This document shows positions 22,573 through 63,978 of a stretch of DNA of 64,000 nucleotides, in pieces. The number at the start of each line of letters is the position of its first letter. The stretch's first letter is position 1. The stretch covers positions 10,517,579 through 10,581,578 of the forward strand of contig CM049307.1 in NCBI GenBank assembly GCA_026874595.1, in the 5' to 3' direction. The notes under the pieces were generated by a model. That model saw only the letters and a list, made by a program, of their open reading frames with translations. It had not been told where the DNA came from and searched no databases. The translations under genes were made by a program, and so were the position numbers. Source of the stretch: Sipunculus nudus (lineage: Eukaryota; Annelida; Sipuncula; Golfingiida; Sipunculidae).

Positions 22573-25500
22573 ATGAACAATATTATTGCATATATTTTTG
22601 TGGGACTGCAGTCTTTACTTGTGACAGGCAGTCCATGCATGACCCCGGAGGGCCGGGTCGCCTGGTGGGCGGTGTTCAGAGTCTCAGAGTCCGGGTTGTA
22701 TCTGAGAACAGACAGTCTACATGAGTCCTACCAAGAGGTATATACACTGTTTTTAAATATTTCTATTCTATTCATTTTTTGGGGTACAATTTAGATAATC
22801 AGTGTATGATTTTTTTTAAATGTCAAATATATGTCATATATAATATTTTTTTTTTTTCATTGTCCCTATATTATTTATATTACTTTATTATCCCCTCGCA
22901 ACGAAGTTGCGAAAGGGATATAGTATCGCCTCCGTTTTATGCGTCCGTCCGTCTGTCCGTCCTTCCGTCTGTCCGTCCGAAATTGCCTTGTGGATCAATT
23001 TCAGGCCAAACCGTTTGCCCAAAACCTTTCCTCTCGCACATATGGCTTACCCACCCATGGATGAAGAAACCTATCGATTTTGAGGTCATGGGGTCAAAGG
23101 TCACGGCCACAGCACCCACTTCTTGAAAAAGCTTGTGGATCAATTTCAAGCAAAACCGTTTGACCTAAACCTTTCATCTTACATATATGGTTTACCCACC
23201 CTTGAACGAAGAAACCTATCGATTTTGAGGTCACATGGGCAAAGGTCATGGCCACGTACAGCACCCACTTCTTGACAAAGCTTGTGGACCCATTTTAAGC
23301 AAAACCGTTTGACCTAAAGCTTTCATCTTGCACATATGGCTTACCCACCCATGGATGAAGAGACCTATCGATTTGAGGTCACGGGGTCAAAGGTCACGGC
23401 CACAGCACCCACTTCTTGAAAAAGCTTGTGGATTGATTTCAAGCCAAACCGTTTGACCCAAACCTTTCATCTCGCACATATGGCTCACCCACCCATAGAT
23501 GAAAAAACCTTTCGATTATTAGGTCACGGGGTCAAAGGTCACAGCCACAGCACCCACTTCTTGAAAAAGATTGTGGACCCATTTTAATCAAAACCGTTTG
23601 ACCTAAAGCTTTCATCTTGCACATATGGCTTACCCACCCATGGATGAAGAAACCTATCGATTTTGAGGTCACGGGGTCAAAGGTCACGGCCACAGCACCC
23701 ACTTCTAGAAAAAGCTTGTGGACTGATTTTAAGCCAACAGCGGATATACTAATTCCTATGTTTGTACATCCGTCTTCCTGTCTGTCTTCCCATCCGTCTC
23801 AATATACCTTATCGATCAATTTTAAGCCAAATCATTTGATCTTAAGCATTCTCCTTCACATATGCCTCACCCACCCATACACGTACAACTTATTGATCAA
23901 GCTCACACACCTCCCCTCGTCATTTTAACACTTTCGTAATACACCCCATATCATTATGCTCCCATGCAAGGGGATGCTCCGCTTTGCGGTGCCCTTGTTA
24001 TATTTCATTTTATTTTGCCGGTTAATTGAGCAATTTCTTTATCCATTTTTTATTATCTTTTACTAGTTATTTTATATCAGTTATTAAATGCTTTTATTAT
24101 TTATTCATTTCAGCTTTTTGTGTGCAAGGTACGAAAATCATTGGTTTAGTATTTTAACATGAATAACCATTGTTAAATGTCTAAAAAATAGTGTGCATGT
24201 AAAAGGTTGTCATACAGATAATGAAAAGTACCTTAGTCCACTGAGTGGAGTGTTTTTAATATTTCAATAGTTAAACTATAGTTAATAAGTTATGTTGAAT
24301 ATCACTTTGTCACTAACAATTTTACCTTTCGTTTCACGTTTACTGGTGGATCACCCATGGGACGAGTCCAGCCCTCTGAGAACAACATTTGAAGCCGCTG
24401 AGCTTGACAGTGAGGACACAGATTACGTCACGTACTACACGGACTCACTCCGGAACAAATTAACACCAGGGGGCATTGCACAACCTGTAGTAGTAAGTGT
24501 CGTCTGTTTATCACATTTTTCTTTTTTTCTGCGAGTCACAAACAGCATATAAAAAATCCTGGATTAATTCATTCATGTACAAATCAACAATGTATTCACT
24601 GAAAAACAATCTCCTCTATCATGCATATACTCTGTTAATCCTTTTCGGGCATAATTAAGACTATTAAGAGCAAATGTGGTTGGAAATAAAAATGATGAAC
24701 ATTTGTCTTAACATACGATATACGTCATCATCGGAATTCGCTCCAGTAAATTCTAAGAGAAGTCCCCTTAATTTCTTTACGCACCATAACCATTACCGCT
24801 ACACTAGCGACACCTGTTGGCGACCACTGACTTTGAGGTTCGGGTCCTTTGACCGAATAGAAACTTGATGAAAGATAATGTTTTTTTATGGTTGCCTGTA
24901 ATAAACCCAGCTGACCTTCAACGATGAAGTTCTTTCTGGATTTTCTGTCATTTACAGTTTTTCATTCCAATTTCAAACACCTACCGATGCTTGCTCATTT
25001 GACCCGAAAATAACAGAGGAACAACATTACGCGCAGTGCCAGCCTCACTTTGATAGTTAAAGCTTTTAGAGTACTTATGACGCTAATCAACTAACCACCG
25101 GTGCATAGATGTAATTATTTGTGCATGAGACCTTGACCTTCATCCATGGGATTGGGATATCGTGAAAAGTAGACAAAATTTTCAATCACAAAATTAACAA
25201 TGGAAAATTATCAAAATGTTTTGATATTTTGCAAATTCAAACACTGAAACACATTTCCGTACCCCTCGAGTTTCCAGCTTTCGCCTATTTTGTCTCGACT
25301 AGTAAATGAATGAATATGTCTAATTGCTCAATATTTTTGTTCGAATAATGTGATATATATACGCAGTTTACTTATTTAAGTGAACCTGGAGTATCTATTT
25401 CAGAATGAAACCTGAAAAAAAATTAAATGCGCTCTGATAAAACGAGAAATGTCGAATAGCGGAGCAAAAGAATGAGGAAATGAAAAGGCTGACATTAGGG

Positions 25501-28500
25501 GAAAGAATCTGAAAATCAACATCATCACATCAGCGATTCTGTTCCTCTTACAGTAGAGTTATTAATTGAAAATAAACTTACACTCATCCTTTACAGCGCC
25601 CTGCGCATTCCATGATTGTCCATGAATGTGATAATAACCAGTAGCCATGTGCAAAAGAGGATTCTAATTTATATTACGGTCGTATTGACGTATGCACTTA
25701 AATACAAAATATTCCTTGAAAATCAATCCATCAGGGAGGGGGGGGCAACTTATACACGGGTGTAAGTCTGAGAACCCATCATTTAGAGAATTGATAAACA
25801 TTCAGCATTACCAACGATGTTGAGCCATATCCGCCACCAAAAGAATTTTTCTGGAATTTCCGAACAAATGAAAAATATTACCGAAGACGCCTGCAACCTA
25901 TAGTATAATCAACAAGGGTTGTGGAAACCGTTCCTACTGATGAGCAGTGGCATCTAACTAACGCACATAGGCCCTCTCACGTAATAAACAGAACGGACAA
26001 GAGGTACTTTCTTATCAACACTGGCATTAAATTATGCTCACTAAGTGGAACACCCAAATGTATTAGTCACACCATGCAGGGAACATTATATTTATATATG
26101 TTCAAGAATATCTTTCTTTAAAAAGAAATCTATAGTTAACCCCCGTCTAATCAGTTTATTCAAAATAATTTTTCGCCCACAGGGAGGAGTTCTTGTCCAT
26201 AACTTCGGTTATTTGCTTTCCACTGGATTCTGGATTGTTCACAACAACTCCCTTTTCCCACCAAGAGCGAATGGCCAGATTCTGGACCCTGACGATCCGG
26301 CATGGTTTACTGTCACAACAGACCAACCGTCCGCAAGCGACTCATTCTACTTCTGTATCAGTATCGGTGAGTGGATCGATATTCGTTTTTTATTCAATCG
26401 ACAGATTAATTTTCCAATATAATATCTGCTGCTTCTTCGAGATTCGAGATTTTCCCGAGATTTCACAAGGTTGCCTTTTAGGTAATGGTATGGTTTGAAC
26501 CGGAGATGTTCCGTGGTGCAGTAGGACTTCTTACCCACTTGGCTGTGTCCAATCCCTCATGTCAAATAAAAGTATAGGCATTGTTTATGGTTAGGATCTT
26601 CCTCCATGCCGCCACGTGCCACCGTCAGCTTTTAATTGGAACAACGAAATTTCGCTATCAGGGGAGAAATGGCTGTTAGGAAGTGCGATATCATCAGAAT
26701 TAATAATGGAATAGCTAGAGAATCAAATTATATGAAATAAAATGACGTAGATGAAATTAAAAATCTGAAGACATCCTGTCTAACTCTGACAAGCACTAGA
26801 CATATAGACTTTGGAGCGTTTTTGAAAGTGTGTGTGCGAGGGAGGGGGGGGGTGCGCATTCTGTAAGTGTAGCGGGCTCGAGAGCGCGAGCTCGAGGGGG
26901 GAGTTTAAGCGGAGTTCACCCCCCCCCCCCACACGCACACATACACACACACACATGGCGTGGAACATTTTGAATAATTAAACATAGTATGCATTTTGAC
27001 AAGTAGTATTTTGACTTTTTCCTACCTTTCATCACATGCTGCACCACACAAAAACATTACCAAATAATTGAATTTACAGAATCATGCATGCCAAATTGAT
27101 AATATTTATATATTGTTATACAGACTTTTCTAAACCTGGATAAAAACTTAAGATCATATTACCGAGTTTTTAATTTTACTAAAAACCATAGGCGTAAATG
27201 GTATGAAACATGAACCAAATAAACTGAGAGGCAAAGAATATATCATTTTCAAACTTTTATGAAATTGTCATAAAATTTTCAAATCAATATTAACATGAAC
27301 ACTCTACAAAACACTGACCTGATTTCAAGCACATATAATCACATTGAACAATACCGAAAATTATTTATTCCAACGTAGACCTCTCCTCATGGTTATATTA
27401 AGCATACAAGTATATTACCTATCGTTCTAACTGAAAATAATTGCATTATATTTATTCCCCAGGGGCGGATCTAGGAGTAAGGAAAAGGAGGGGTCCAACC
27501 CAGGCGGACTAATGAAAACCCTTAAAAGAAGGTCCCCAGGTCCGGAAAAAGGGGGGGGGTCTAGGCCGGATACAAAGGTCTGAACCCTTTAGAAAAAGGT
27601 TGCAGTGGCTGAAAAAAAGGTGGGGGGGGGGAGGGAGGGGGGTCCGGACCCCCTGGACCCCTCACCTGGATCCGCTTCTGTTCCCTTACCTCTAAAAATT
27701 ACACAGTATTTATTAATAAACAGACCCAACTGAGAAATAAAGTCCTGTTGTTTTCATTCTCATTGGCCAAAAAGTGTGGGTGGGGTGGGGTGGGGGTAGG
27801 GTGCAGGGCCTGCGGCGTCTTTTTGGCCCAGGAAAAATGAGAAATAATGTTTCATAGATTTGGAACTTGCATCTATTGTTCCGTTATATATTGTTGCAGT
27901 ATATTTATTCCCTTACCTCTAAAAATTACACAATATTGACCTTTACTAATAAACAGACCCAACTGAGAAATCAAGTCCTGTTGTTTTCATTAGAGGCACG
28001 TAAACTCAATTAGAAGATATACAATGGAAGTTCGATGCAAATCTATAGAACTTGTATCATTTCTCATTGGCCAAAATGTGTGGGTGGGGTGGGGTGGGGT
28101 GGGATGCAGGGCCTGCGGCCTCTTTTTGGCCAAGGAAAAATGAGAAATAATGTTTCATAGATTTGGAACTTGCATCTATTGTTCCATAGATTTGGAATCC
28201 CTGCTTTACAGGTTTCAACAAGTAACAAACCACACATACATATGCTTTTCAGACAGTGAGCGTCATCTGGAGGACATGTTGGAAGTTTGGTTGCTAACAA
28301 ACCCAAGCATAAGAAACAGCCGTATTGAAGACGATCTTTGGTTAGACTATCTGGAAGAAAACCCAAACACGGTCCATGGGTTCCCCTACACCAGGACTTT
28401 GGAGGCTGTGCAGGTAAATTCCCCAGGATAATGTCCAAAAGATTTTTTTCTTCAGTATGTTCATTTTATAGAACTCAATTTTTGGATTAAGTACTTTTTT

Positions 28501-29397
28501 AAGTTTTGAGTGATGATTGTGGAATACATATGACTTGATATGATATGCTGATAAAGTGCTTTATTTTTAATTGTTGTTATAACTTTGACGTATTGTTCCT
28601 AAGTTACCTTTCATTTGGTTAGGACTGCCTTGGTGCCACTGTGGATGACATAGCAGACGCCTGTCTCCGTGATTACTTGGACGTACAAGCAGGGCTCCAG
28701 ATCCTCGTCCGTCTTCCGGGGGTCACGTGGCAAAAGCCGTGCGTGGACCTGCTGCAAGGCAACGATGAGAATGGATGGCCGGTGTGGGATATGTGGTATG
28801 ACCCATCTAATGGTCGACAGAGGTCACAAGGGGTGTTCGCCATCTCTGGTTCTATTGTCTGCTTCGGGAGCAATATCGCTGACAACCCGGACAGCACTAT
28901 AGTCATGGTGAGAATTACATAGCAACAGTCGCATGTCAATGAGAGAAGGAAGGAACTTAGAAAAAGTCTTACCAAAAAGGGGCGGATCCAGGATTAAGGA
29001 ACAGGATGACTAATAAAACCTAAAAAAGGTTGACAGGTCTTGAAAAGGGGGGTCAAGGCCGCAAAAATCGGTCTGAAATCCTTAGAAAAGGTTGCGGCGG
29101 CTGAAAGGTGTGCCGGGGTCCGTCTTACTTTTTGCTCTACATCATATTTCTTCCCATTTTCTAACTGGTTCTAAGTAAATTTATATTTCACTGATGACTT
29201 CAAATTGTGTCATTGGAAAAAAAAATTAGTTAGATTATATAAAGCAATTCACATTTTCAGGCCTGTGTATATCAGCCCGAGTTGGCTCAACATCTGAAGG
29301 TATCTAACCAGTCGGTCGACATGTCGTGTACAAGTGTGATGCTAAACAAGGCGTCTCAAGGAAAATGCTACGGCAAAAGGTGTGAAGACACAAGGAG
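22573..29397 (+). CDS. Gene A exons 1-6: signal peptide and DNase II-like region
   Basis: The start ATG opens a hydrophobic leader followed by Ser-Pro-Cys, as DNase II begins with Cys just after its leader. Matches to DNase II are AWWAVFR with a GLYL strand (exon 1), SPLRTTF (exon 2), GFWIVHNNSLFPPR and FYFCISI (exon 3), LQILVRL and IVCFGSNI (exon 5). DNase II is the acid endonuclease of lysosomes and belongs to the phospholipase D superfamily; its active site uses HxK motifs. The first HxK aligns with H110-N-F112 and the second with E-N269-G-W, so both lysines and one histidine appear replaced. H124 in IVHNN, matching the third essential histidine, is kept. The region probably binds but does not cut DNA. 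Exon 6 adds Cys-rich tail residues (CYGKRC). Confidence 0.75.
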
Positions 29398-32300
29398 GTA
29401 ATATGCCTGTCAAACAAACATTTCCAGGTCAACGGGCATAATTTTATCCGCAAAAACAGAGTTTTGCGGATACTATGTTTTCAGTCGGACGCCGCCGCCA
29501 CCGCCGCCGTAACGGTGGAATTTTTTTTAAATTCGGAATTATGATTGGGTCAAATATGAACTGCTGCGCCCTCAATTTTGGTTGACCTCTGACCTTTCCT
29601 CTCACCCCAGCGTCCATGTGTGCGTCTGTTTCCACACTAAACCCACATCTCGGGAACCGTTTGACCGATCAGCTGCAGACAGCCATGCTAATATGCAACA
29701 CACCTCACTTTATTTCCCCTTGCCACTCAATCCATGCCTCACTTCACCCGGCCCACTCTGATTTCGCCGGATACACTTAGTCGCTTGTCGGCTACCCGTA
29801 TTCTAGTTTAAATTTTGTTTAATTATGCGCACTCTGCCCACTATACGAAACATGGCACAACTTCGTGTTTTCAGAAGACTGTCCCGCCAGCCCGGGTACA
29901 AAATATGGGATTCGGTTATTCTTTTAAATTTGTAGATATGACTATGTATATTATAACAGCGCAGACATGCTTAATTAGTGTTTATATAGTTTAACAGGGG
30001 CAGTCGACTCATCTAGGATGATTTCATACTATGCTTGAGAAGTGTATAAGGCGTTTATCAAGTAGACAGAATAATATGGTATAATATCTTAATTATGCTA
30101 TAATAATTTACTAATTTTCAGAGACAATGACAATACTGCGACGCCATCTAAACGACAGAGAGGTATATATTTAAATAATTTCTGTACATTAAGTATTAGT
30201 GGACATCCTTTACACTACCCGCTGTAGTCGGATAAATACTAAACGTATCGGCACTGGGTCAGAATCTGCACCCACATCTGGAATCGTATAGCAGTCTTCC
30301 ATTTACTTAAAGCTTTATACAAAACAGTTTTAATTTGTGTGTGCCTGAGATATTAATATGGGAGTATATAAAAGTATCATTTCACTGCAAAGATTTGATT
30401 AAGTTCCTATTTTAAAAATGTTAACAAGTTAAAAAAGTGAAAATTAAAAAACATTTGAAATAAATAATTAAGGGTTAATATATAACAAGTTAAAATTGGA
30501 AAGAAATTTAAAAATAATAATAATTATTAGCTCAGTTTAAAAAATGAAAACATTGTTTTATTTTCTTAGTACACTACGTAGACAGAAACAAAGACCTTAC
30601 CAAGTACCTGTTGGAAAACAAGAATGCTGTGACAGCGGTTTTCTGCAGGAAAGGTAAAACGTTGAACATTATTTATCATAATATGGAACGATCCAGATTC
30701 TTCGGCATTTTTGCCTAGAATGAAAAAATTATTTGTCTGCCTTTCGCGGTGGAAACTGACAGCTCTTAGGGATAACATTATTTAAATTCCTTTGAGAATG
30801 TTATGTCTCATTTATGATGTGTTTGTCAAATCAAGTATTAATCAACGTTAATTACATCAAGTAGGATACAGTGTTTCTTTGGCGGAGACTTGTGCCATTT
30901 TCATTGTTTACATGACTTTCTTCGTTTTCAGGCTGTCGATTCTGTGACACCATGAAGGGAAAACTGTCCCGTGCTGCCGAGGCATTGTGGGATACTTTTA
31001 ATACAGACGTGGTGGTGGCAGACATTCAGACCTTCGGGTTCCCAGTAGAGTTAATGGTAGAGAAAACACCTTTGATCAGGTATATGGTATTAAAGTGAAC
31101 ATATAATAATAAGCTGGTATGATGTTTCATGTGTTTCGCTGCACGTTGTAAACGGAGTCTACCTTCATGTCTCATGTATCGTGAATTCCAAATTTCATTC
31201 AAGGATTTGGAACGACCAGAGATGATGGATTCTATAGATCACATGACATGACCAAGGATGCGATAATGCTTAAAACACAGGCACCATATTCCAGATATAT
31301 TGTGTGCATATTCCATATGCTATGATCATCACTTTCCTAGTGAGAAAGAGAGCGCATTACAAATTTATTAACAAGTAATCACAATACTGATGAACGTTTT
31401 TTATACGTATGCTTTTTAATACATTAACCACAGAAAGAACTTATAGTCTGATTAAAGGATTATATTGTTTAACTCAAAGATTACTTGAATTCAAAGCAAA
31501 GTATTTCCTTCTAATCGATGTATAATGTGGGGTTTTTTTTGCCGGTAGAAACATGTGTGCGGATTCAGAAGCAGCTCGGATATAACCATAGCATTGTGGT
31601 ATATTGTTATGAACTACATATTAAGTATTTAACCTTTATAACCTTATTAATTTGCAAGGTACCGCGAGGCAGGTGGAGCTAATAAAACATGGTATAGGGT
31701 TTCTGCTGGAATACCACGTCCGTCAGAGCTGGTCGCCTACATCAAGGAAATCCAGAAATTGTAAAGTCACAAGATACATTTTCTTATAATAATTAAATAT
31801 TAAGATATAATCAAATAAATATCATCGTCATCTTACAGGATAATTGCAAATGATTTTGAAATTACTAAAACCTGAACTGTTCGTATTAATTTTAAATTTT
31901 TTTTTCGCACGCTGTATTGTATACTTCTTTTATAATAGTTTTACCATGTTATATCTAAACTATGACCATGAAATTAAAACCATGGATATTCAAAGTTCAC
32001 ATTTTATGAATAAATTATGATCACCAGAGCCGACGAAAGTGTTGATAAACCCGTGGAGGAGACTATTAAAACTGCTAGCATGAATAGTCAGCAGGTGTTT
32101 ACTACAAGAGAAACACAAGGTATTTTTCATCCTCTATAATACGAGAAAGTGAAACGATATTTATTTGTCCTCACAGAGAAACGACAATCAATTAATATAA
32201 TTATAATTACATAAAATAATAAGATGATTTTATAATTACATAAAATAATACAAGGTAATATAATATTAATTAATAACTACTTCTCTTACTTCAGAAATAA

Positions 32301-35300
32301 AGATCCTAATCAAAGACCCTTTCTTCTGTTAAGGTACTGGACAAAGGAGATTAAAGAGAGACGTAGAAGACATTGTCTCGCCACGCAAGGAGACCGCGAG
32401 TACAGACCGTGGACCCAGGCACGCGGCACCCCGGAGTCACGAGCAGACGAAAGTGGACGACACGACAGGCAGTGCAGCAGACGACAACTCCTGCACTCAG
32501 GATAAACCAAAACGTCAGGTTATATACGATATAAAGAGTTGATATATTTGTTTACGAACTTAGAAGCGACAGGGGCTCCGATGCTGAATACCTCCCTTAG
32601 AACTTCTGACCTTGATAAAAGGCAACTTGTTACTTCAATGTAAATAATTAGCTCGTTCACTAGACTTCTTTCATGGTTCTCAGTTTCACTGAGAAAGAAA
32701 ACCCTGTGTCCTTTCGGCCACCAGATGTATAAAAACAAAGTCAAATACGATGTTTTTTAAATGGCTTTTGAAAAGGAACATGAAATTGAATAAGAAATAA
32801 TTTAAGTAATTACTATGACTGGAAACCGGGATAAATTATAATGTAATGGGTCCCGGTTTTGTGATGTCATAAAAAAACTCCTTTGAAACCTGAAATTAGG
32901 TCATATTTATCATGGACTGTTTCATCAGTTCCTGCAGACTAATTGCGCCATCTGGATTTTTTTACAATTTTTCATATTTTTAAGATGCGGTCATCCTTTT
33001 ACAGGGCACAAATTGTCACCGTTGGACCTAGAATCTTCTAACTTGACATCTAGGGAGGACAATGAAAATCTCCTGACAATCCTGAAATTTGGTCATAGTG
33101 ACCTATATTCTGCAAGATATGTGAAAGAACAAAGGGCAGATATGCATGATTTGTTACTTGAAATTGGCCCTAGGAATTTCTAATTTTATAAAGATCCAGG
33201 GAGATTCCCGTAACAATTTCTATGAAACATGAAATAATGTCATTGTGACCTTTATTCTGGAAGTTATGTAAAAGAACAGATTTTAACACTGTTAGTCACA
33301 TGGGCAAAAATGGTAGTAGCAGGATATAGAATAAGGTCACTGTAACCTATTTATAAATTCTGTTGACAAAATGCATGACTTTAAGCATCTGGGAGTCATG
33401 TTTCCCATTGTTCAAGGTTCTCTGAATCCAGCTGAGCGTCATGGCCCATGGGCTACTTGTTTTATTTTAGATTAAATTCACATTAGATCAGTGGTTACCC
33501 GCTGTTATCTAGCATGCAATGGAATATTTGTTGTTTGCAGTATAAACCAAGTCATCAACATATTCTTTAATAAATGTTTTATTTCAGTCCCCTTCCTGTT
33601 GATAGAGTAATGGCATACAACAGGAGCTTACTATTTGTGTATAAATGCTAATTATGATCCTGTTATGTGGAATTATCAAGACAATAAAGTCATTCATTTT
33701 CATGACCAGTTGACATGTAAACAACTAATAATACTCGAGTGTTAGTTCAAAGACGGATGGCCGTTGTGAGTTGCGTAATTGCTAGTGAAAATTTTAATAA
33801 AATTTTGAATATTAGATAATAAACCTGACATCTTAAGATATCACACTGGTGTACAAACAATCAATTAAAGGTAAATCTCCAAAATTTATAGCAATAGTTC
33901 CGCCCAGTTATGTTATCAGCGTATTTCAAAATATTCATGCATAGTTTATTTTACAATTTCTTTCATGTTTTAAACGAAATCTTAAACTTATAATTGCAAA
34001 AAATACCCACTTAATTGTTAACTCTTTATCCACCTATCTTAACAACTCTAACGCTGAACAAAAAATTTAGCATGAGATTGTGCCGATAGTCACAACACAT
34101 GAGAGAGATGCACTTGAGGGGATTCCATCTCCTCACATTACTGTTGTTATATATCGTCGAAGTCTGGCAAATTCATCTTTAGGTTACATATGTTATGCTT
34201 TACTGGAGGGTTTTGTTTTATTTTATGAACATTTCTCTAATTAGTACAAGAACTACATTTCGAGGAAATCGCACTTGTCATAGCGGAAAACGTTACGCAA
34301 TAATTATGACAGAAGTAGTCATTATACTACTAAAATGTTTTTTTTTTCTGTTATTTTCATAGGTACCCTACGCTGTATATCTTCAACGAACACCAATTTG
34401 GATGGTAAGAGTAGATTACGGTTTATAACCCCCCCCCCCCCCCCCCCATCGCCCGTGTCAGAACGGAATTAAGAATAATATTAAACAATATTTAGCAGGA
34501 ACCAAAACAACATGGTTTCAATAAGTCATGGTTTCAATCAGGAAAAGCTTAATTGTTTATTTCATTTCACACCGAGGAATCCTGTTTTTACAGAAAACAA
34601 TCATATCTACATTGTAATAATTTCTGTTACATTTTCTTAACTATCTAAATTATTACGTTCAGGAGCAATCATTCCTTACTATTCTTATCCCAACATAAAT
34701 GAGGTTGTCGTGCAAAGTCTAATATTCCAACCGGCAGCTTATTATGATCGGGTTTGATTGACAGGGGATTACTGAGAAATAAAGTGAGAAGTTGCAAAAT
34801 ATCTAAAGGGCCGGTAGATGCTATTTACGTTCACTTGTGTTCCACACGTAGTTTATCTGTTCATGGTCTTTGTAGGAAATATGTTTTCTTTAGATATGGA
34901 ACACTGTAATAGTACCGTCAGATACAGCTGTCAAATATTCTTTTAATCACTTTCAGAGATTAAAATTGCCAGAATACGTGATTCCTTACTCCCCGATGGC
35001 AGATCAAACTGTCAGGGTGACCGTCGGCTATTGTTCAGTAAGCCGGGGGGCGCGGGCTGCACCATGCTTCAGGCCAGTCTGTCTTGCGGCAGATACGACA
35101 ACGACCGACGAGAGCTGTACAGGGCGGTCTGCGTTAATGGCGGGGTATACGGAAGAATTAAATATCATGCAGAGGGTCACCTGAAATACCAGCTTGAAGA
35201 AGATGCAGATCACATCAGGAACCAGGCACGTAACTTTGGACTTGATAAAGAATATAAATGTGAATTCAAGATTGTCATCAATAACAGTCCATGTTATGAA

Positions 35301-45668: not shown

Positions 45669-45715
<47 letters not shown>

Positions 45716-48514: not shown

Positions 48515-48568
<54 letters not shown>

Positions 48569-51500: not shown

Positions 51501-52876
51501 AATGTTTTCGTTATATACATACACACACGACGAGCAAAAGAAACGTAAGGGGAGCCTGTTTTTCTTTACATATTTACATTTCTTTGCTTCCAGAGTTTCT
51601 GAGATGCATTTCTTCTGTACCAAGGAACACCCATGGTACGTTCCACTTGTCTTAAATAGGTGCATAAATTAATTTATACTTAATGGACACTGTGTGGTCT
51701 GTCACTCTATTTTTTATTAATGCAATTTTTAAACCCCACTTTGTAGTCCTCGGAGTCACATGTTCGATTTAATAGGTTAATATTTATTATTCTGACCAAT
51801 CGCGTAATTATGAGGACGATACCTTTATATGGTTCATCTAAACGGTACTTTCAGATAACTGCCTAATATAGATCTTGCTGTAATGTGTAAACTGTGACGT
51901 TTTAATTTCTGAAGCACATATATCTGAATTGTACGCTGAACGTCAGATACTGTCGTTGTTGATGTATTTGTGTTATTGCCCTTTTTAATGAGTTACATTT
52001 AATTAGCAACAATATATAACTCAGTAATTCTGTTTACTGGACAAGGTCTCTGTATTTACTCGGGATGCATATGCCCCTTTATGCTGAGCCCGTCTTTATT
52101 GAGTCGATTTTTGCACAGGTTTGCAACTTTCTGGCGCATTATATCGCTTTTATGTTACAGATATATGTATTAGGGACTTGCCTCAGGAGTATCTCCCGCC
52201 TAAGAAAGCACACTTCACAGGTGACCGGCGTCTGTTGTTTGGCCAGCCAGGGGATTATGGATGCACACTTGTCCGAGCCCAGCTGGTATGTGGAGACAAG
52301 CAAATCTACACGGCCGTATGTGCCAATGGACCTTTCAAGAGAAACTCTGAAGTGAAGAGGAATCAAAAAATTTGGCATGCAGAGGGGCATCTCAGAAACC
52401 AAATTAAGAAAGATGCACCCAAAATCACGGCAGAAGCTGTACGTCTCGGTGGCGAGTACATGTGTCATTATAAAATGATAATGAACAACAGTCCGTGTCG
52501 TGACACGTGCAGCGGTGCCAAGGATGCCGAGCCAAAGAATATCCCCAATACGGTCGAGTTTCTCCAAGAAATACTGGGAAAGTCATTAACAAAACTTAAT
52601 GTGGAAATAGTGTTCGCGTTCGCCTTCCCGAAAGGGGACGATGAAAAATGGAAAGCCGCCATTGAGTCCATGATAAAACGTTCATACACGGTTAAACGTT
52701 GCAGATTTGACACTTCCTGGTGGGATGATCTAAAGAAGTCGACCCAAGACAAGGAAGAAGTTGAGAAGGCGAAAAAGAAGAGAAATGAGTATGACGTTGA
52801 TTTGTCTAAGAAACTGCAGAACTACGGACTGGAAGTGGAGTTTGATACGGAGTATTGCATTCGTCCCGGCAATTAA
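43522..52876 (+). CDS. Gene B: secreted DNase II-like / thioredoxin / AID-APOBEC-like deaminase
   Basis: The fourteen exons are 43522-43695, 44614-44760, 45175-45364, 45816-45976, 46757-47056, 47477-47628, 48597-48640, 49294-49377, 49745-49892, 50124-50225, 50620-50699, 50871-51053, 51594-51635 and 52161-52876, giving 840 residues. Every junction is GT-AG and every phase matches copies A and C. The order is signal peptide (about 1-24), DNase II-like region, thioredoxin-like domain with C419-R-F-C422, five consecutive Arg at 532-536 (furin-type), acidic linker, R592-C593, and the deaminase with H675-A-E677 and P714-C715-R-D-T-C719. This is the cleanest of the three copies. A CATTCAG acceptor just before the ATG suggests an upstream untranslated exon. 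The likely role, by inference, is extracellular or endolysosomal nucleic-acid handling, possibly in immunity. Confidence 0.87.
45676..45712. repeat. (AT)n microsatellite in gene B intron 3
   Basis: An uninterrupted TA/AT dinucleotide run. Another long (TA)n stretch lies at about 48494-48558 in intron 6. Confidence 0.9.
48160..48490 (-). mobile_element. tRNA-derived SINE-like element in gene B intron 6
   Basis: On the minus strand an A-box-like TAGCTAAGCGGTTGG (around 48241-48255) and a B box GGTTCGAAACC (around 48200-48210) are spaced as in a pol III promoter. A 49-bp piece holding GAAGACAAATTTTTCAG and the B box is repeated about 277 bp away near 48439-48487. The acceptor arms do not pair, so it is not a functional tRNA gene. 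Confidence 0.55.
49294..50225 (+). CDS. Gene B exons 8-10: thioredoxin-like domain
   Basis: Exons 49294-49377, 49745-49892 and 50124-50225. AVLAVFC and RKG lead to C419-R-F-C422. VVVADI is the next strand, and T463-P464 marks the cis-proline site. The closing helix is VTKYISDIQN. All thioredoxin landmarks are present. Confidence 0.82.
50620..51635 (+). CDS. Gene B exons 11-13: linker with RRRRR cluster
   Basis: Exons 50620-50699, 50871-51053 and 51594-51635. Five Arg (532-536) precede Asn and an acidic stretch (LSDEDEGEP), a good proprotein-convertase context. The rest is Lys/Thr/Ser-rich. Exon 13 encodes FLRCISS. Confidence 0.7.
52161..52876 (+). CDS. Gene B exon 14: AID/APOBEC-like deaminase domain
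   Basis: Residues 603-840, after a TTACAG acceptor. HAE at 675-677 and PCRDTC at 714-719 are 36 residues apart. The strands CTLVRAQLVC and QIYTAVCANG precede HAE; LNVEIVFAFAF and YTVKRCRFDTSWW follow, then a Lys/Glu-rich terminal helix. Same fold order as in copies A and C. Confidence 0.83.
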
Positions 52877-53859: not shown

Positions 53860-54055
53860 AGAAGGATCTGGGGGGGGGGGTGTTGTTCAGGGGGCCACCC
53901 CGCCTCTCCTCGTCGCAACCTTTATTTATGGTTTCAGAATGAAAATTTGTGATCTAACCCCCCCCCCCCCTTTACTGGACCATGGGACCTTTTTTTCGGT
54001 TTTTCATTAGTCTTCCTGGGTAGGACGCCCCCCCCCCCCCCCCGCCTTTCCTGCA
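53860..54055 (-). mobile_element. Degraded MITE remnant with C/G runs
   Basis: GGATCTGGGGGG, GGGGGCCACCCCG, CGCAACCTTTATTTATGG and CATTAGTCTTCCTGGGT resemble, on the minus strand, the interior of the 27460-27680 element (GACTAATG, GGTTGCAG). The ends are not clear. Confidence 0.35.
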
Positions 54056-55041: not shown

Positions 55042-55096
55042 TAAAGGTAACCACCAGTGTATTACAGATGGCGGAGTGACAGAGCTTCACATCAGA

Positions 55097-58000
55097 ATGT
55101 TCCGTTTTCTTGGATTTCTTCTGGTATTAGACTGGTGGTCGACGACAGTCTCTGGCAGTCGATGCTTGACGTCAGATGGTTATGACGTCACGTGGTGGGC
55201 CGTGTTCAGACGCCCAAGTTCACATTTTTACTTCACAATTGACAGTGAGAATGATGACGTCACGGAGGTAATTATTTGAAAAATCATTTTAGACGTATGT
55301 GTGTTGTTAATTACATATCCTTGTGAATATGACTGCAGAAAATACAACCACACATACAACCCTATAAATAACCACGATCCATTCTGGTTATTGTTGCCTT
55401 GTTATTGTAGTTTTGTTACTCCTATCAATATTTGTGTGCGTTGGACTAATGTTATCCTTGTACGTTGTATCACAACAAACATTTTTGTTAAAAAGCATCA
55501 ACCCTGAGATAATCTGTGAATATTTCTTGAATAACATTTTTGTTGATGAATGCAGGTCCTGTTCTTTTCTTAAATTAGTTTCAAGCATTCTTTCCTCTTA
55601 AAAATTCTATCTTCCTGGAGGACTTATATCAATGCAATCGTCTTTATTTAACAGAGTATTCCCAGTCGCTGAGCATTTTAGAGCATATCTTTGTATGGAT
55701 TGCACGTGGTTTTATTAACTTTGGCATTTCTTGGAAGAAGAAACTCTAGTTTAACGGTTAGCACGAATTACTGCCTGGATGCCTGTGTGGTTTTATGGGC
55801 ATTATTGTTTTGTTTTTAGTTGCTTCATCCTTGGGGTAAGGATAGTCCCCTACAGGCAACTGTTGAGGGTGCTGACCTCGGCAGCGAAACCACTGATGTT
55901 CTCACCTACTACACTGATTACGCTAATCTGCTGCTAGAGGGCGCTAACAGTTCTCATGTTCTGGTTGTGAGTAGAATTACTCAGCTTATTTTGCCATCAA
56001 CCTTCTGATTGATAGTCCAATTGTAAGACAACAATGTAACGTTGGGACTTAGAAAGATATAAAAAGACCATGGGAACAGGTATATGGTCATGTTCTGCGG
56101 GCTACCGTGATAAACATCTAAAAAATTCATAAAGCTGAAATAATTTGCCTGTTATACATTTACGTAACGTTTATATGTAACGTTGGTACTTAGAAAGGTA
56201 TAAAACGACCATGGAAACAGGTATATGGTCATGTTATGGTGAAATGTATTCTGCGAGCTACCGGTATAAACATGTAAAAAATTTATAAAGCTGAAATAAT
56301 TTACGCCAAATTTCAGCTATTGAATATCAGCCATATTTAGATCTTGCGCAAATAGAAAATGGAAAATGTAAAAGAAAAACAAATTGTAATCCCATATTGT
56401 AACTGACGGTTCTGCACTCTTGAGGACCAAAATAATTTCACCCACATAAAATTTACCCAAATATGGATATATAAACAAACTAATTAACCCTTAAAAGAGA
56501 CCCCTTCTACGAGAGAATATGAAATAGCTGGTTGAGTCCACTCTCTCTCTGAAATTACTGTTCTACAGAATTACTGTTGTAACAGTTGCATCATTCCGTC
56601 GATAGATGGCGTTAGGAAAGAAACTGAAGCAGATTTTAAGACTATCCAAAATATACTAAGGAGAAAAAGCCGTTTTCCGATTTTTTATTTTTATTGAGAA
56701 ATTTGGCTTGTTTTTAATTTTGCTTTAGTGTTACATGTTCGCACTATTTTGAACCCTGAACATATCGGCTATGTTTTTCATTAATAATTACCAACTAATA
56801 GCAGCTTCTCACACAGGCCCCTGTCAGGTAGCCGAGGGAATTAAAAAAAAGACTATTAAGATGATACGGTACAACTTGTAATCCCTAGTGAGGCTTGAAT
56901 TTTACAGGGTGGTATGATAGCACATGATTTTGGTTACGTCAGCTCTACCGGGTTCTGGATCATCCACAATAATAGTTATTTCCCGCCGAGAGAGGGCGAC
57001 ACCCTCATCACTGATCCACGTGACCCGCGCTGGGCTGTGTCCCTCACGGACGATCCTATGGCACAAGGCGATCCATTCTACTTCTGTACAACCATTGGTA
57101 ATGTCAAATTTTCAATACACATTTTCTTCTTCTTCTTTAATAAGATAAAAAATTATATGACTGAGGATTGTTTCATGGATATATATCTGTATATACTCCT
57201 GAGGAAGTAAAGGTGTGTTTCTATCTGTATGTGCGTGTACACGTTTGTAAAAAGTTGGAAAAGGGAACCGATTTTAATCACATATATGCTTATTGTGACT
57301 AGTTTTCTTTTATTTGAAATCATTCATGGTTTTTTATTCTTAAGTTGATAAATATCGATTTTACTTTATCCAGATAACAAGAAGCACTTGGAGGAGATGG
57401 TTGATGTCTGGTTGATGTCAAATCCAACACTAGGAGTGTCTGATGTGAAGGATGACTTTTGGACAGAGAAGTTAGAAGTGTCGTTTTATCCCGGGGTCAG
57501 CTTCCACTACCACACTGCACTCAAAGCAGCGTTTGTATGTCAGATATTTTATCATTGTATGCTTTTTTTCACACTATTGCGTTAAAATTAGAATTGTATG
57601 TTCTCCTTTCGGTTAGTTAAAGCAACCCCTTTAAGGAAGAATCTGTCCCACCATCGGTGTTACCTGGTTTATCGCTATTTTTTATCACGCCATAACAGTT
57701 CCAAAGACAGCATTAGAAAAATACACGTTTAAACGTCCATTGGAAAACTAAAAATGTTCTCATTTCACTTATATTTTATATATTTTATTTCAACATTCAT
57801 GTTTTTATATAAATGTTCGGTAGTGATACGAGCTACAGAATCACATTCCAAAAAAACTCTATTTCAGGCATGTTTCTACAGTAACACGAGAGAACTTATC
57901 AAGAATTGTCTCAGACAATACAGTAACAAAGATGCCGGTCTGCAGATGTTGGTGCGCATGCGTAGTCTTACCATCCATAACGTACAGCCATGCATGAACT

Positions 58001-58679
58001 TCATTCGGGGCTTTGACGAACACGGATGGCCAAAGTGGGACCTCCAATACAAACCATGGCAAGAGGTCCAACAAGTCGAAATCAGGAATGTCTTTGCGAT
58101 CAGCAGCTCTCTTGTTTGCTTCGGAAACGACATTGCAGTGAATCCTGATGTAACCGCCCTCATGGTAAGACATAAAGCCAACTCTGTGTGTTTTATATAT
58201 TGGCCTTGGCACACAATTGATTTCATTGATTACACAGACGGCAGCGTCATAGTTGTTGTGATTTATTTGTGTGGCTCCGCGTGTACGGCGTTTTTAAACT
58301 AATATCGTATACCCTCATCCCCGTCCCGTTCCATTCACACACAGATGCAAGCTCTCGATTCAACAGACGATCGACGCAACGCAGATTAATTGATGATACA
58401 TGGCGTCGTAAGCACAGTTTACCATCATTTATTATTTTTTTACATCATTTATTTGTAGGTATGCGTTGCTCATCCGCGGTTGGCAACATGGCTTTTGTCC
58501 ACAAGACATTCGGTGGATCTGTCATGTAAAGAGCTTTTAGTCGAACGGTTTAAACAAGGCATCGGAATCAATCCAATTCCCTCACCTGTGGCATCGCGAG
58601 GCCATTGTACTAAAACACAGTGCGCAACACAGAAGAAAAGCGATACCCGCCAGCAAGCAACGACAACACAGGATGAGAA
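55097..58679 (+). CDS. Gene C exons 1-6: signal peptide and DNase II-like region
   Basis: The leader is followed by SGSRC and TWWAVFR. Exon 3 reads A-H112-D-F114-G, then GFWIIHNNSYFPPR with H126 and FYFC. Exon 5 reads E-H275-G-W-P-K, then LVCFGNDI. The first HxK lysine is Phe; in the second site a Lys (279) follows His by four residues instead of two. Exon 6 is 221 nt against 137-152 in the others and adds a Gln/Thr-rich end after CTKTQC. Confidence 0.75.
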
Positions 58680-61600
58680 GTAAGTTCCAAATCTCAACTT
58701 TATTCGAGGAGACCTTGAAAGACACTACTTTTATTTAGCACCGTCGAGTCCGCTTATTATAATATAATATGTACAGTCCAAGGTCACTGCAGTCAGGGTT
58801 GTTGCTATGCTGGCTCCGAGAAGGAGCTCCTTTTTTGGTAACATGGTATTGAATAAATCAACAGTGTATAAGAACTGTTTCATGAAAGACAAATTTCATG
58901 ATATTTTGCATCATATATCCTAACTGTTTTTACCATTTTACCAAAAATATATTAACAATTTCCTTGTATGTAATGCAATTTTCGTAGATAGATATGTAGA
59001 TTTATTTGTAGCACAATGAAAAATATTTCTTTGGAAACAACAAAGAGAAAAAAAGAGAGAATGTTATTTAAACTTTGTGTTAAACTTTACCTATTTTACA
59101 TGGATTGTACAACTAGTCATAGTAACTAATACGAGGCGCTCTCCATGGCTTGGATGTTGGAGTTCGTAGTCGGTAAGGGTGGAAGAAACCAGAGGACCCG
59201 GAGAAAACCACCGACCTTGGACGGGCCACTACAATCCACTTTCATAGCCACGCCGGGAATCGAACCCGGGGCATGCGGAGAGGGCCAACAATGTTATTTT
59301 ATAAATGGTTTAATACAACTGGGACTTCATGCATGTTAATTCAACGAGTCACCTGATTTAAATAGTTTTTATTTCATCCTTTTTTGCACTTTTCCCATCA
59401 GATCTGACACTCATGATGCGCCTTTCATCGGAACACCTACCACAAGACAACAAAGTGAGAATCTTAACATCTTAACATACGTTCATATTGGATATTTAAT
59501 GGACATATAACGATATAATGGATTGACCATCATAGAGACATTCATAGATGATACATAATATGTGCGGTGTTTTGGGACATTGAATTAATTTATGAGAGCG
59601 TGCATGGTTTAAGAAAATGTACTCTCTTAACCTGAAGCTTGTTTCGGCATGGTCAAGCAAAATTGTTTAACCTAATCTTAAAATACAGAGATCTTAAGTT
59701 CACAAAATGAACGAGTATTATACAGGGCATCTTTTAAGCTCCGTCATACACAGGTGCATGTAAATTGGAAGCAATTATGTGTACAATGAAAGGCACATTT
59801 TCGCGTGATTTTATTTTCGAGATTTATCATGAATCGCAAGTTTCGCGAATTACATTTTTATAGCAACAAACTTAGACGGCGAAAATTCCAGTTTATTCCA
59901 TGCTTTTTTAAAATTTGAAACACTCTCGGACAGAATTGGCAAGTAAACATGTTAAGTGCTCATGTCAGGGGGTGATCCCATATGCGGGCTTACCTCTCCA
60001 TTAATACATGTCATTTTTTAAAATCTTTTATTATTATATTACAGTTCAGTACATAGACCGTCAAGATGAACTGACAACTTATGTTTTGGAAAATGTAAAC
60101 AACGTCTTGGCCATATTCTGCCGCAAAGGTAATTCCTATCTGACATGAAATGAATACTTTTTAGTGTTTGAATTATATAACGTCTATTTTGTTTCGCCGG
60201 AACATAAGCTTCTACTTGAGTAATTTCTTTATTTTTTCTCATAACAGTTGCCCATAACAATGTCCTCTTAAGCAGTCTTAGACTTTTGCTTCCTGTTGCC
60301 ATAACACAATAGTTCTAAAGGAATTTTCCTCCTAAGGAACCAAAGCTTTTACCTAAAAATATAGTAACGTAATTCTACATAGAAAAGTCGAGTAAACGAT
60401 TAAAGCAATGATAATTTTCATTAGAAGAGGCTATGTGTCAGTAGCATTATAGGAATTTACTTTGACAGTGGAAGAAAAGGGGATCCGCTATGATTCATTT
60501 ACATAATCATATACTAGTACATGTATATTGAATTAACTATATACTTTGGACCAAGAAGTAAAAAAAGTGTTTCTGTCCTTTAAATTTTGCTTGTATCAAA
60601 CATTTGCTTATCAATTACTTTCTTTTACTTCACAAATTTTCCTATTAGGGATATTATGAACAACGTTTGCTTAATTAATGCATTTTAATAAGCTTAGAAA
60701 TTAGTGCCGGGTATTTACTTTCTTTTAAGAAAGATGATAGAAATGTCCGGATGATGTACTCGTATTCAGTTTAATGTAAAAAATTCATTGTAGCATCAGA
60801 TTTTTGGGCATCAAATGCATGTGCGTGTGTTATAGGCTGTCGTTACTGTGACACAATGGATGATGACGTCAATAGATTGGCTGATCAGATATGGCCGGTG
60901 TACGACACAGACATTGTTGTCGTAGACATCATGATATTTGGTTTTCCTCCTGAGCTAAACGTTGACGAAACACCAACTGTCCGGTATTTTACTTAATTCA
61001 TAATTTCAATTTTCGTCTGTCTTATTTGAAAAAATGGTGAACCCCCGGGTTGCGTCACGGTAATTGCTGGTTTTACTTTGGTGTAAGAGGATTCAAATAT
61101 TATAATCATTGAGATGTTTGTGAAAATGATTTGCAAATCTAAAATAATGTTTAAATAGAAATAAAGAATACAGTTTAGGGAATACTTTGTGATCTGAACA
61201 CCGTTGTGTTTTTTTTTTATTTTTTTGCATGTGTGTGTGTGTTTACTTCCGGCATTGAAGGTACACGAAGGGACAAATTTATTCAGCTTTACATGTATGA
61301 CTCCGTACTTATTCATTTTAGTTATCGCCCCAAGCTCAAAGATGACATTCATATGGAATGGTTTACAGTGTCAGAAGGAATCCCGACTTTAAAAGAATTA
61401 ACCTCTGTTATCGATGAGATCCATGCAAAGTGAGTTCACGTTTGGTTGTTATCGATGAGACCCATGCAGCGTGAGTTTTACGTTTTAGTTGTTATCGATG
61501 AGACCCATGCAGAGTGAGTTCACGTTTCGTTGTTATCGATGAGACCCAAACAGAGTGAATTAACGTTTTAGTTGTTATCGATGAGACCCATGCAGAGTGA

Positions 61601-62488
61601 GATCACGTTTTAGTTGTTATCGATGAGATCTATACAAAGTGAGTTTATGTCTTTGTTGCTATCGATGAGATCCATGTTACTGACAAATCAATTACATTCG
61701 GGTGTAAAACACCATCAACGCAAGCAAAACATTTATGGATAGTAAAGTGCAACTTCAATGTTCGAAGTAACAGCTATGTAGATATGATATGTTTTTTTTT
61801 ATTTTAGGAAAATATACAAAAGTTTAGGTAGAATGTTGACAGCTACGTAACCTTGTCTGAATTATATTGCAAGGCTAGAAGATTGGGACACAGAAGACGA
61901 ATCTGGAGGAGACACTCAAAAGAAAAATGACCCACCGCCACAGGACCGAAAAGAGCCGATAGGTAGGTAGTTCTTAAGAATAGACACAAATAACAAGCAA
62001 AACGTGTTTACCTTCACCAACGCCACGAGGAAGACAATAATAACATTATAATGAAAGCTAAAAAAAAACAGAGTGTCGCATGGGACAAGATGGTCCTTAC
62101 CTTGTTAAGGCTGCATGGTAAACGTTTCCGAGATAAAGTCATTCTTGTTTGGTCAACGGGCACTTAGATTCCGTTTTCGTGCAACTCTTCTCCTATATTG
62201 GTGATATCCGTTGTCTGGGCACCTGGCGGTTATAATTCTTCATTATTATTTTGATCAGATTTGACACTATTTTGAAATCAATACAATTTTTTTATATATA
62301 CTAATATTTTTTTAGAGAAACCCCACCGCCGCGTTAAAAGGAACACGGAAATGAATGATAATGTATGTGATGACCAAAATGCAAAGCCGAGCGAAAATGC
62401 ACGAACGAGACAGCAAAATAAACAACGAAATGGAAACCAGAGGACATGTCAGCAACAAGGGAAACCACCCGGTCTGTCTCACACGCAT

Positions 62489-62521
<33 letters not shown>

Positions 62522-63978
62522 TTATTACGTAACTTTATGTCGCACCTTAATATAAGTATTATATATAATATATGAACTAATAATGACGTTCATTTGTATT
62601 CACACTGGAAACACAATGTTTTTTAAATATGATAGTCTATATAACCTTGCGTGTTTCATGACATTGTACATTGAGGTTACTCGTGAAATTTCAGTATTAC
62701 AAATTCGGTGCGCTTCATCACTCCGCCAGGATGGGTATAAAGGAGGTAAGTATTACCGGGAAATTTATTGGAAAATGATTGGTCCTGTCAGATAGCTCTT
62801 TCATGGTGATAAATTTATCTATTATGAAAAGTAAATGTATCAATTTGATGAGGTTTATTGTAGAAAAGATAAAGATATCTGGTTCCTGCTATAAGGTAAA
62901 CCTGATTAAGTTAATAGTAGAAAAAGGTTTGGAATATCATTTGTGACGTAAAAAAAATGTCAAAACCCATAAATGCCTAAGTATGAACCTATAACCTTCA
63001 TTCTTCAACTCTGCATTTGGTCTGACTTTTTTTATATTTTAAGTTCGATGGTGAGTGAATAAAGCGCTATAACTACAATTGGCATTTTATTTTATTTTAT
63101 CGGCCACAGTGACGCTAGAAGATATCAAAGAAGAGCTGGAACCGCCGGATAAAACAAACTGTAGAGGAGATAAACGACGGATGTTTTATGATGCAAACTC
63201 AAGCGGATGCACCGTATTAAAAGCAAGTTTGGTTTGCAGACAGACCAAGGATCAGGCTCTTTCTGAGATCTATAGGGCTGTCTGTGTGAACGGGTTGACC
63301 ATAACAAATAAAAAGTATGACGAAATGAAGCCAGAGAAACGGAGAAAGATAAAGGTTCAGTATCATGCCGAAGGACACCTCAGCCATAAGATAGACGAAG
63401 ACGACAAAGAATGGAAACTGAAAGAACTCATCAAGAAAAAGGAAATAAAACCGGACGGTGGCTGTCAGTTGTGGATCGTCCTCAATTACAATCCATGTTG
63501 TAAGTCGTGTAGTGGTGCCAATCAAGGTGGTCCAAGAAATATCCCTCAAGTTATAGAGAATGTGAGAAACATTCTGGGTTCTGATATACAGCTTGAAGTC
63601 AAAATAGCGTTTGCATCTATCTTTATGAAACGGGACGAAAGTGAGAAAGGTAAAGAGTCAGAGAAGGCCGCGGGGAACGCTCTTCGTGCCATGATAAAAC
63701 AGGGGTACACACTGGCACTCTGCAACTTTACCGACCTCTGGTGGCGGGAATTAGAGGAAAGTCGGGAAGATTCATGCAAGCAAGATGGTGACAAAATTCA
63801 TGATGACAATGACTGTACGGAGGTACGCAACGAAAAACAGAGACGTTATGACGAAGACCTGATCACCCTTAACAATATGGGACTTTCTGATTCTGTTCAG
63901 TCCAAGGAATCCTGCGTATATTCCAGCAGAAGGAAAGCAAAAGATGCCGAGTTCTTGATCGACCCGGACTGGACTTGA
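55097..63978 (+). CDS. Gene C: secreted DNase II-like / thioredoxin / AID-APOBEC-like deaminase
   Basis: The fourteen exons are 55097-55267, 55820-55966, 56908-57097, 57374-57534, 57868-58164, 58459-58679, 59402-59454, 60045-60128, 60836-60983, 61322-61429, 61874-61962, 62316-62471, 62695-62745 and 63110-63978, giving 914 residues. All junctions are GT-AG with the same phases as A and B. I chose the ATG at 55097 because it opens a hydrophobic leader matching the others; an in-frame upstream ATG at 55028 would add 23 unleader-like residues. The order is signal peptide, DNase II-like region, thioredoxin-like domain with C443-R-Y-C446, RRVKR at 561-565, longer Gln/Asn-rich linker, RC at 613-614, and deaminase with H711-A-E713 and P754-C755-C-K-S-C759. 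It is the most divergent copy, with a longer exon 6 and a longer last exon. The stop codon lies 22 bases before the window end. Confidence 0.85.
56036..56310. repeat. About 140-bp tandem duplication in gene C intron 2
   Basis: A block with GTAACGTTGGGACTTAGAAA, GGTATATGGTCATGTT and TAAAGCTGAAATAATTT occurs twice in direct orientation, starting near 56036 and 56177, with small differences. Confidence 0.75.
59140..59290 (-). mobile_element. 5'-truncated tRNA-derived SINE in gene C intron 6
   Basis: On the minus strand it reads a T-arm-like GGGTTCGATTCCCGGCG followed by TGGCCCGTCCAAGGTCGG and TTTTCTCCGGGTCCTCTGG, the usual layout of invertebrate tRNA-SINEs. The tRNA head is mostly missing. Confidence 0.6.
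60045..61429 (+). CDS. Gene C exons 8-10: thioredoxin-like domain
   Basis: Exons 60045-60128, 60836-60983 and 61322-61429. VLAIFCRKG leads to C443-R-Y-C446. IVVVDI follows, and T487-P488 marks the cis-proline site. The closing helix is LTSVIDEIHA. Exon 10 ends at the first of several repeated GTGAGT donors. Confidence 0.82.
61407..61676 (+). repeat. Minisatellite containing a repeated splice donor (gene C exon 10 end)
   Basis: Seven units of 41-43 bp begin at about 61407, 61448, 61491, 61532, 61574, 61616 and 61658. The first is the genuine 3' end of exon 10 plus its GTGAGT donor. The next five keep GAGACCCATGCAGAGTGAGT-like sequence with GTGAGT, GTGAAT or GTGAGA. The array therefore arose from exon-intron boundary sequence. 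Confidence 0.9.
61874..62745 (+). CDS. Gene C exons 11-13: linker with RRVKR cluster
   Basis: Exons 61874-61962, 62316-62471 and 62695-62745. R561-R-V-K-R565 is followed by Asn, matching RxKR. The linker is rich in Gln, Asn and Arg. Exon 13 is 51 nt and encodes IRCASS. The exon 12 donor (G|GTCTGT) is weaker than the others. Confidence 0.65.
62491..62522. repeat. (TA)n(TG)n microsatellite
   Basis: A TA run passing into a TG run just after the exon 12 donor of gene C. Confidence 0.9.
63110..63978 (+). CDS. Gene C exon 14: AID/APOBEC-like deaminase domain
   Basis: Residues 626-914, after a GCCACAG acceptor. HAE at 711-713 and PCCKSC at 754-759 are 40 residues apart. The strands CTVLKASLVC and EIYRAVCVNG precede HAE; LEVKIAFASIF and YTLALCNFTDLWW follow. 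Insertions lie before HAE, in the following Lys/Glu-rich helix and near the C terminus (SCKQDG, NDCTEV). Confidence 0.8.

Follow-up and report, generated by a model that had tools for sequence, protein, structure and literature searches.

A tandem gene family combining DNase II-like, thioredoxin-like and AID/APOBEC-type deaminase regions in Sipunculus nudus

Organization of the gene family

The window analysed here is a stretch of 64,000 nucleotides of contig CM049307.1 from the sipunculan worm Sipunculus nudus (assembly GCA_026874595.1, positions 10,517,579 to 10,581,578). It contains three tandem genes on the plus strand, A (22573-35699), B (43522-52876) and C (55097-63978), which were modelled from splice signals and comparison between the copies, on genomic sequence alone. 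Each gene has 13 exons, and the products have 822, 826 and 897 residues, respectively. All three share a common order: a leader, a DNase II-like region, a CxxC-containing thioredoxin-like region, a variable linker, and a deaminase encoded by a single exon. A first-pass annotation of this DNA had proposed a three-gene tandem family spanning 22573-63978 with leader, DNase II-like, CxxC and HAE/PCxxxC parts in that order, and both proposals were borne out: the first start codon and the last stop codon agree with this span, and the order is found in 3/3 copies. When the spliced products of A, B and C were compared with the entire window by tblastn, the matches fell into these three blocks, in the same order, with no further copies at E<=1e-3. 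The parts of the three genes are as follows.

22573..29397, plus strand: gene A exons 1-6, leader and DNase II-like region (22573-22737, 24346-24492, 26183-26366, 28253-28413, 28623-28907, 29261-29397)
30122..30162, plus strand: gene A exon 7, short variable linker
30570..31760, plus strand: gene A exons 8-10, thioredoxin-like region (30570-30653, 30932-31079, 31659-31760); CRFC at 30934-30945
32028..32513, plus strand: gene A exons 11-12, linker (32028-32119, 32334-32513); furin-type motif RRLKR/D (slash, predicted cut) at 32345-32359
34957..35699, plus strand: gene A exon 13, AID/APOBEC-type deaminase candidate; HAE at 35166-35174, PCYETC at 35289-35306
43522..47628, plus strand: gene B exons 1-6, leader and DNase II-like region (43522-43695, 44614-44760, 45175-45364, 45816-45976, 46757-47056, 47477-47628)
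48597..48640, plus strand: gene B exon 7, short variable linker
49294..50225, plus strand: gene B exons 8-10, thioredoxin-like region (49294-49377, 49745-49892, 50124-50225); CRFC at 49747-49758
50620..51053, plus strand: gene B exons 11-12, linker (50620-50699, 50871-51053); furin-type motif RRRRR/N at 50882-50896
52161..52876, plus strand: gene B exon 13, AID/APOBEC-type deaminase by predicted fold; HAE at 52376-52384, PCRDTC at 52493-52510
55097..58679, plus strand: gene C exons 1-6, leader and DNase II-like region (55097-55267, 55820-55966, 56908-57097, 57374-57534, 57868-58164, 58459-58679)
59402..59454, plus strand: gene C exon 7, short variable linker
60045..61429, plus strand: gene C exons 8-10, thioredoxin-like region (60045-60128, 60836-60983, 61322-61429); CRYC at 60838-60849
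61874..62471, plus strand: gene C exons 11-12, linker (61874-61962, 62316-62471); furin-type motif RRVKR/N at 62327-62341
63110..63978, plus strand: gene C exon 13, AID/APOBEC-type deaminase by predicted fold; HAE at 63364-63372, PCCKSC at 63493-63510

Genes B and C have an open frame throughout, and all their introns are of the GT-AG type. The intron phases (0,0,1,0,0,2,1,1,2,2,1,1) are identical in the three genes, where the agreement at exon 7 of B and at the last donor of A is not independent, because both were picked with the phase in view. Exon 7 of B was selected among candidate exons by its fit in length and phase to exon 7 of A and C, which makes it the less secure part of the model. 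Chance open frames would not account for the blocks, as the exon plan recurs and the DNase II-like parts of A and B differ by a nonsynonymous rate (dN) of 0.25 and a synonymous rate (dS) of 1.17. For this part, the comparisons of A and B with C are saturated, as are many of the other dS values.

Gene A deviates from this pattern at two points. Its exon 2 is preceded by TG, where B and C have AG (24344-24366); an in-frame AG acceptor downstream provides an alternative exon start at 24367. In addition, the frame between exons 12 and 13 is kept only by a weak donor at 32513, which was chosen for this reason. A donor after 32518 was rejected since it breaks the frame, as was an additional, phase-symmetric exon of 42 bases near 34364, which leaves the phase problem of exon 12 uncured. 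The unusual acceptor and the weak donor suggest that A may be partly damaged or differently spliced, making it possibly a decaying or alternatively spliced copy.

Two introns contain tandem repeats. Intron 1 of A carries an array of about 5 copies of a 145-base repeat (22987-23737), which can also be read with a 293-base period. In intron 10 of C, about 6.5 copies of a unit of about 42 bases (61406-61676) reproduce the 3' end of exon 10 (7 matches) and its splice donor (5 donor-like matches).

Regions of the predicted proteins

In full-length scans, the Pfam DNase_II profile (cut-off 23 bits) matched A with 24.2 bits and C with 29.3 bits, and did not match B. Scans restricted to the DNase II parts matched all three at a permissive threshold of E<=10, with a best E of 1.2e-7. 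Two results weigh against this assignment: only the N-terminal half of the Pfam profile is matched (positions 2-170 of 326), and an hhalign comparison of the 3 copies with 2 DNase II sequences was weak, with a probability of 10% and an E of 0.003 over the first 114 columns, and no alignment in global mode. To place catalytic motifs, a human DNase II sequence was used as bait, which retrieved the solved enzyme 5i3e ('Putative deoxyribonuclease-2', E 4.4e-38, from B. thailandensis), and both were aligned with the copies. According to passages of PMC4148230, DNase II catalysis relies on a pair of variant HKD motifs (HxK) that are divided between the two halves of the protein. In this distant alignment, the first catalytic site, GHTKGV, corresponds to G---GV or G---GM in 3/3 copies, and the second, EDHSKW or QDHAKW, to residues without H or K, again in 3/3. 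No HxK was found in the N-terminal half of any copy, and no DHxK anywhere in the three. An HxK does occur further on at residue 325 of A and residue 329 of B, at differing aligned places, and none in C. With both motifs gone from the aligned sites, degradation of DNA is unlikely, leaving binding or scaffolding as the remaining role. The DNase II homology proposed in the first-pass annotation stands (above cut-off in A and C, not in B); judging from sequence, this is very probably a DNase II-derived domain that has lost its nuclease activity, i.e. a pseudo-nuclease. The ratio dN/dS of near 0.2 between A and B suggests that this part is under constraint, though its catalytic residues are gone.

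The thioredoxin-like region, encoded by exons 8-10, contains the stretch FCRKGCR[FY]CD, which is invariant in all copies except for the F/Y position, so that the CxxC motif reads CRFC in A and B and CRYC in C. A third invariant cysteine lies 4 positions upstream of CxxC (FCRKGCRxC) in each copy. Searching the PDB with a profile of this region from the three copies yielded 15 distinct sequences at E<=1, 13 of which are named thioredoxin-fold proteins (disulfide oxidoreductases, PDI, DsbC, DsbE/CcmG, glutaredoxins, and a putative thioredoxin). The best match, 1a8l, has an E of 0.023 and an aligned CxxC; none of the 13 falls under 0.01, and 4 of them (DsbE/CcmG) are confined to a downstream stretch of 32 residues. 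In Pfam, the region alone matched Glrx-like in 3/3 copies (best E 0.037; 14.8 bits for A, against a cut-off of 26) and Thioredoxin in 1/3 (E 0.11). Both were outscored by TraF (2 copies, best E 0.004) and Radical_SAM (1 copy, E 0.0064), which counts against a thioredoxin. Full-length scans gave Glrx-like in A (13.2 bits versus 26), TraF in C (12.4 versus 23), and nothing in B; none of the scores printed for A, B or C reaches its curated Pfam cut-off. The sequence is thus consistent with, and does not prove, a thioredoxin fold; of the redox module claimed earlier, the CxxC is retained throughout and the profile support is weak.

Exon 13 encodes HAE and PCx3C in 3/3 copies (PCYETC, PCRDTC, and PCCKSC). 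With predicted models of this region as Foldseek queries, the first 46 of the 50 matches listed for B and 50/50 listed for C were AID/APOBEC proteins. By its predicted fold, exon 13 is of the AID/APOBEC type in copies B and C, which, together with the zinc motif, upholds the deaminase assignment of the first-pass annotation. Several observations pull the other way. The query-normalised template modelling (TM) scores are modest (0.31-0.46 over the 46 AID/APOBEC rows of B, and 0.21-0.35 for C), and the model for C has a predicted confidence (pLDDT) of 64. The gap between HxE and PC is 38, 36 and 40 residues in A, B and C, versus the 25-30 of the definition HxE, x25-30, PCx2-4C given in PMC11004436. 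Pfam SNAD4 was found in copy C only, at 17.6 bits versus a cut-off of 27, and not in A or B; APOBEC_N gave a match below cut-off in a single copy; the deaminase of B alone matched no Pfam family; and one copy weakly matched a LAGLIDADG model. A sequence search of the PDB with the deaminase gave no match. Profile searches part by part place DNase_II above its cut-off in A and C, and leave SNAD4 and the thioredoxin-type profiles below theirs. From sequence, we infer that the exon 13 domain may deaminate cytosine.

Between A and B, the DNase II-like region is 64% identical, the thioredoxin-like region 55%, the deaminase 41%, and the second linker 29%. Compared with C, the DNase II-like and thioredoxin-like regions are 45-50% identical and the deaminase 35-36%. 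The two N-terminal regions are thus more conserved than the deaminase in all 3 pairs.

Predicted processing and mechanism

The linker between the thioredoxin-like region and the deaminase has an identity of 18-29% among the copies, motif included, with a few scattered invariant residues. The sole compact motif common to the linkers is RRLKR/D in A, RRRRR/N in B, and RRVKR/N in C, located at the same aligned place in 3/3. Their shared consensus, RRx[KR]R/[DN], fits R-X-[KR]-R, which is the consensus for furin, a proprotein convertase. Such motifs are short, and A contains a second one (RNKR, residue 787) inside the deaminase, which tells against a functional site. After shuffling, R-X-[KR]-R appeared in 8.5, 8.4 and 11.7% of trials for the respective linkers. 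The product of these frequencies, 8e-4, is not a probability of independent events, since the copies share ancestry. Rather, the point of the motif is its retention in the aligned sequences while most of the linker changed.

Given this shared site, the mature product may consist of more than one chain. The first-pass annotation had joined the three modules in one chain; the predicted furin-type site suggests possibly two chains, an N-terminal part and a free deaminase, a sequence-based proposal that is new here. Following the linker site there are 8, 8 and 12 cysteines in A, B and C beyond the 2 zinc ligands, and preceding it 13 in 3/3. The even number would allow the C-terminal fragment to be self-contained, held together by its own disulfides. 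A disulfide joining the two fragments, in the style of two-chain toxins, was considered as well and is not required by these counts.

A leader with a hydrophobic core of 11 residues is present in 3/3 copies, with a mean hydropathy of 1.97-2.28. Counting against secretion, some internal 11-mers are equally hydrophobic (2.27-2.70); no internal 19-mer attains a mean of 1.6, a value attained among the leaders by that of A only. The secretion proposed earlier is plausible, and given the family context we consider it likely, not proven.

Our preferred reading, to which we assign a probability of about 0.5, is that these genes encode secreted, proteolytically matured mutators of nucleic acids, probably defensive. 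It builds on computed features: the order of regions, the exon plan, the family relations, the loss of nuclease motifs, the cleavage motif, the deaminase fold (B and C), and the zinc motif. Each gene would give rise to a secreted pro-protein, with the leader directing entry into the secretory pathway, where its many cysteines would form disulfides. The DNase II-like domain, very probably dead as an enzyme, would probably serve for holding nucleic acid or for targeting, and the thioredoxin-like domain would assist in folding or redox reactions. Cleavage of the linker by a furin-type protease, at RRx[KR]R/[DN], would then release or activate the AID/APOBEC-type domain at the C-terminus, which may act as a zinc-dependent cytosine deaminase on single-stranded DNA or RNA. 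This would take place in haemolymph, phagosomes, or endosomes, with viruses or microbes as the most likely target. Defence against extracellular or endosomal nucleic acid, as already suggested in the first-pass annotation, is a reasonable inference. Secretion, cleavage, catalysis, substrate and defence role are predictions in this scheme, which draws on sequence and predicted structure. More speculatively, and in our view doubtfully, the protein could be a toxin-like secreted mutator: the inactive DNase II domain would capture nucleic acid outside cells or direct its uptake, a redox step of the thioredoxin-like part would effect release, and the furin-type cut would free a deaminase that causes hypermutation of viral or microbial genomes away from the cell that made it. 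Such a mechanism would amount to mutation-based immunity at a distance, by means of a modular delivery protein.

Other explanations bear on the same features. The basic cluster in the linker could be a nuclear localisation signal instead of a protease site, perhaps with a leaderless form editing DNA in the nucleus like classical AID: in B, RRRRR is followed after 11 residues by PKKAK, resembling a bipartite signal, and A has a weaker SPRK nearby in the linker. C lacks a second basic cluster there, however, whereas RRx[KR]R/[DN] is kept in 3/3, and a secretory route is favoured by the leader, by the arrangement of cysteines and by the DNase II-like domain; we consider a nuclear role improbable. 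We regard it as highly improbable that the deaminase is a gene of its own next to a DNase II/thioredoxin gene, the two having been fused by an artefact of exon joining. In favour of this, the models were joined from genomic sequence, the intron before exon 13 measures 2443, 1107 and 638 bases in A, B and C, gene A contains a weak and an unusual splice signal, and the exon search was confined to the 13-exon chain. Against this, the phase-compatible chain recurs in 3 copies, no other member of the family lies between the blocks, and exon 13 starts without a leader and, in B, has no methionine ahead of HAE.

Two further alternatives concern the division of labour within the protein, and we consider each unlikely, if less far-fetched. 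The deaminase domain could be a secreted binding or nucleotide-salvage protein rather than a mutator, its zinc site being kept for structure or for free cytidine. This would suit a protein whose neighbouring DNase II-like domain is apparently already a pseudo-enzyme, and the activity of SNADs is described as unknown in the passages at hand; yet HAE and PCx3C are invariant in 3/3 despite 35-41% identity in the deaminase, and among the fold matches listed, the first 46 of 50 for B and all 50 for C are to polynucleotide deaminases. Alternatively, the thioredoxin-like part could do no more than help its own chain to fold, and the N-terminal part could be a pro-region that is discarded, leaving the free deaminase as the whole effector. 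The position of the furin-type site between the two, and a CxxC retained in 3/3, would fit such a division, but the stronger conservation of the DNase II-like and thioredoxin-like parts is more than expected of a pro-region.

The target and activity of secreted AID/APOBEC-like deaminases are unsettled in the literature excerpts consulted. The fusion to a DNase II-derived domain, which probably handles nucleic acid, suggests extracellular or endosomal nucleic acid as the target, and the predicted activation site suggests how secreted deaminases may be switched on. Both ideas are directly testable with recombinant protein.

Relatives and comparison with known systems

Profiles of the full-length protein, the deaminase and the DNase II part recovered no relatives from the protein collection, where one of the searches scored only the 7996 candidates with the most shared words, and scans of genomes and viral contigs recovered none either. 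A tblastn search of plasmids with the DNase II part gave 2 matches only (E 2 and 6). Sequence searches of the PDB with this part gave nothing meaningful (none in one search, and 2 chance-level matches, E 0.62 and 1.2, in another), and NCBIfam gave one unrelated weak match. As the collections are apparently mostly microbial and viral, these results say little about other animals. Among the literature matches listed, no paper joins DNase II, thioredoxin and deaminase, and none places a furin site in such a deaminase; the survey of Krishnan 2018 lies outside this coverage, and could describe the fusion. We consider the finding real and unusual. Elsewhere in the window, upstream of the cluster on the minus strand, lie pieces of a protein phosphatase 2C (PF00481) at 2821-3102, 3602-4057, and 15722-16390, the first two of which exceed the cut-off (best E 2e-28), with the third just under it.

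DNase II (PF03265; 5i3e) resembles the proteins described here in its leader, a common W-x-x-H stretch, and a sequence relation over the N-terminal half, and differs in that here both HxK catalytic motifs are lost and two more domains are attached. An expanded DNase II-like family is also found in Trichinella spiralis, for which 125 genes were predicted, one with the HKD motif; the passages of PMC4148230 at hand mention no deaminase or thioredoxin part. Protein disulfide oxidoreductases and other thioredoxin-fold proteins share the CxxC and a weak profile match, whereas here the curated cut-off is unreached and an extra cysteine is conserved (FCRKGCRxC).

Among deaminases, SNADs are described in excerpts of PMC8201067 and PMC11004436 as a sister clade of the classical AID/APOBECs; they carry a sequence predicted to direct secretion, and their activity is given as unknown. 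Based on the latter source, they share with our candidates an AID/APOBEC fold, HxE, a zinc site of the PCx2-4C type, and secretion, which here is predicted. In contrast to SNADs, the deaminase forms the end of a protein of 822-897 residues, in which it is preceded by a DNase II-like region, a thioredoxin-like region and a furin-type motif. The second zinc motif of SNAD1, reported as CVxxC in the portion of PMC11004436 consulted, does not have this form in A, B or C. Other invertebrate AID/APOBEC-like deaminases are LaAIDL1 and LaAIDL2 of Lingula and those of sea urchin; according to PMC5956068, LaAIDL1 showed activity when assayed in bacteria, and the BLAST matches of the Lingula proteins include two from Crassostrea gigas. 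The Crassostrea entries XP_011451320 and XP_019924665 are named in that paper. LaAIDL1 has two tandem deaminase domains and LaAIDL2 is a smaller protein, unlike the three-part genes presented here; the main text of PMC5956068 does not contain 'thioredoxin', and 'DNase' occurs in it solely as a laboratory reagent. Similarly, a survey of Aplysia lists three 'APOBEC3-like' proteins (PMC9334734, in the part consulted).

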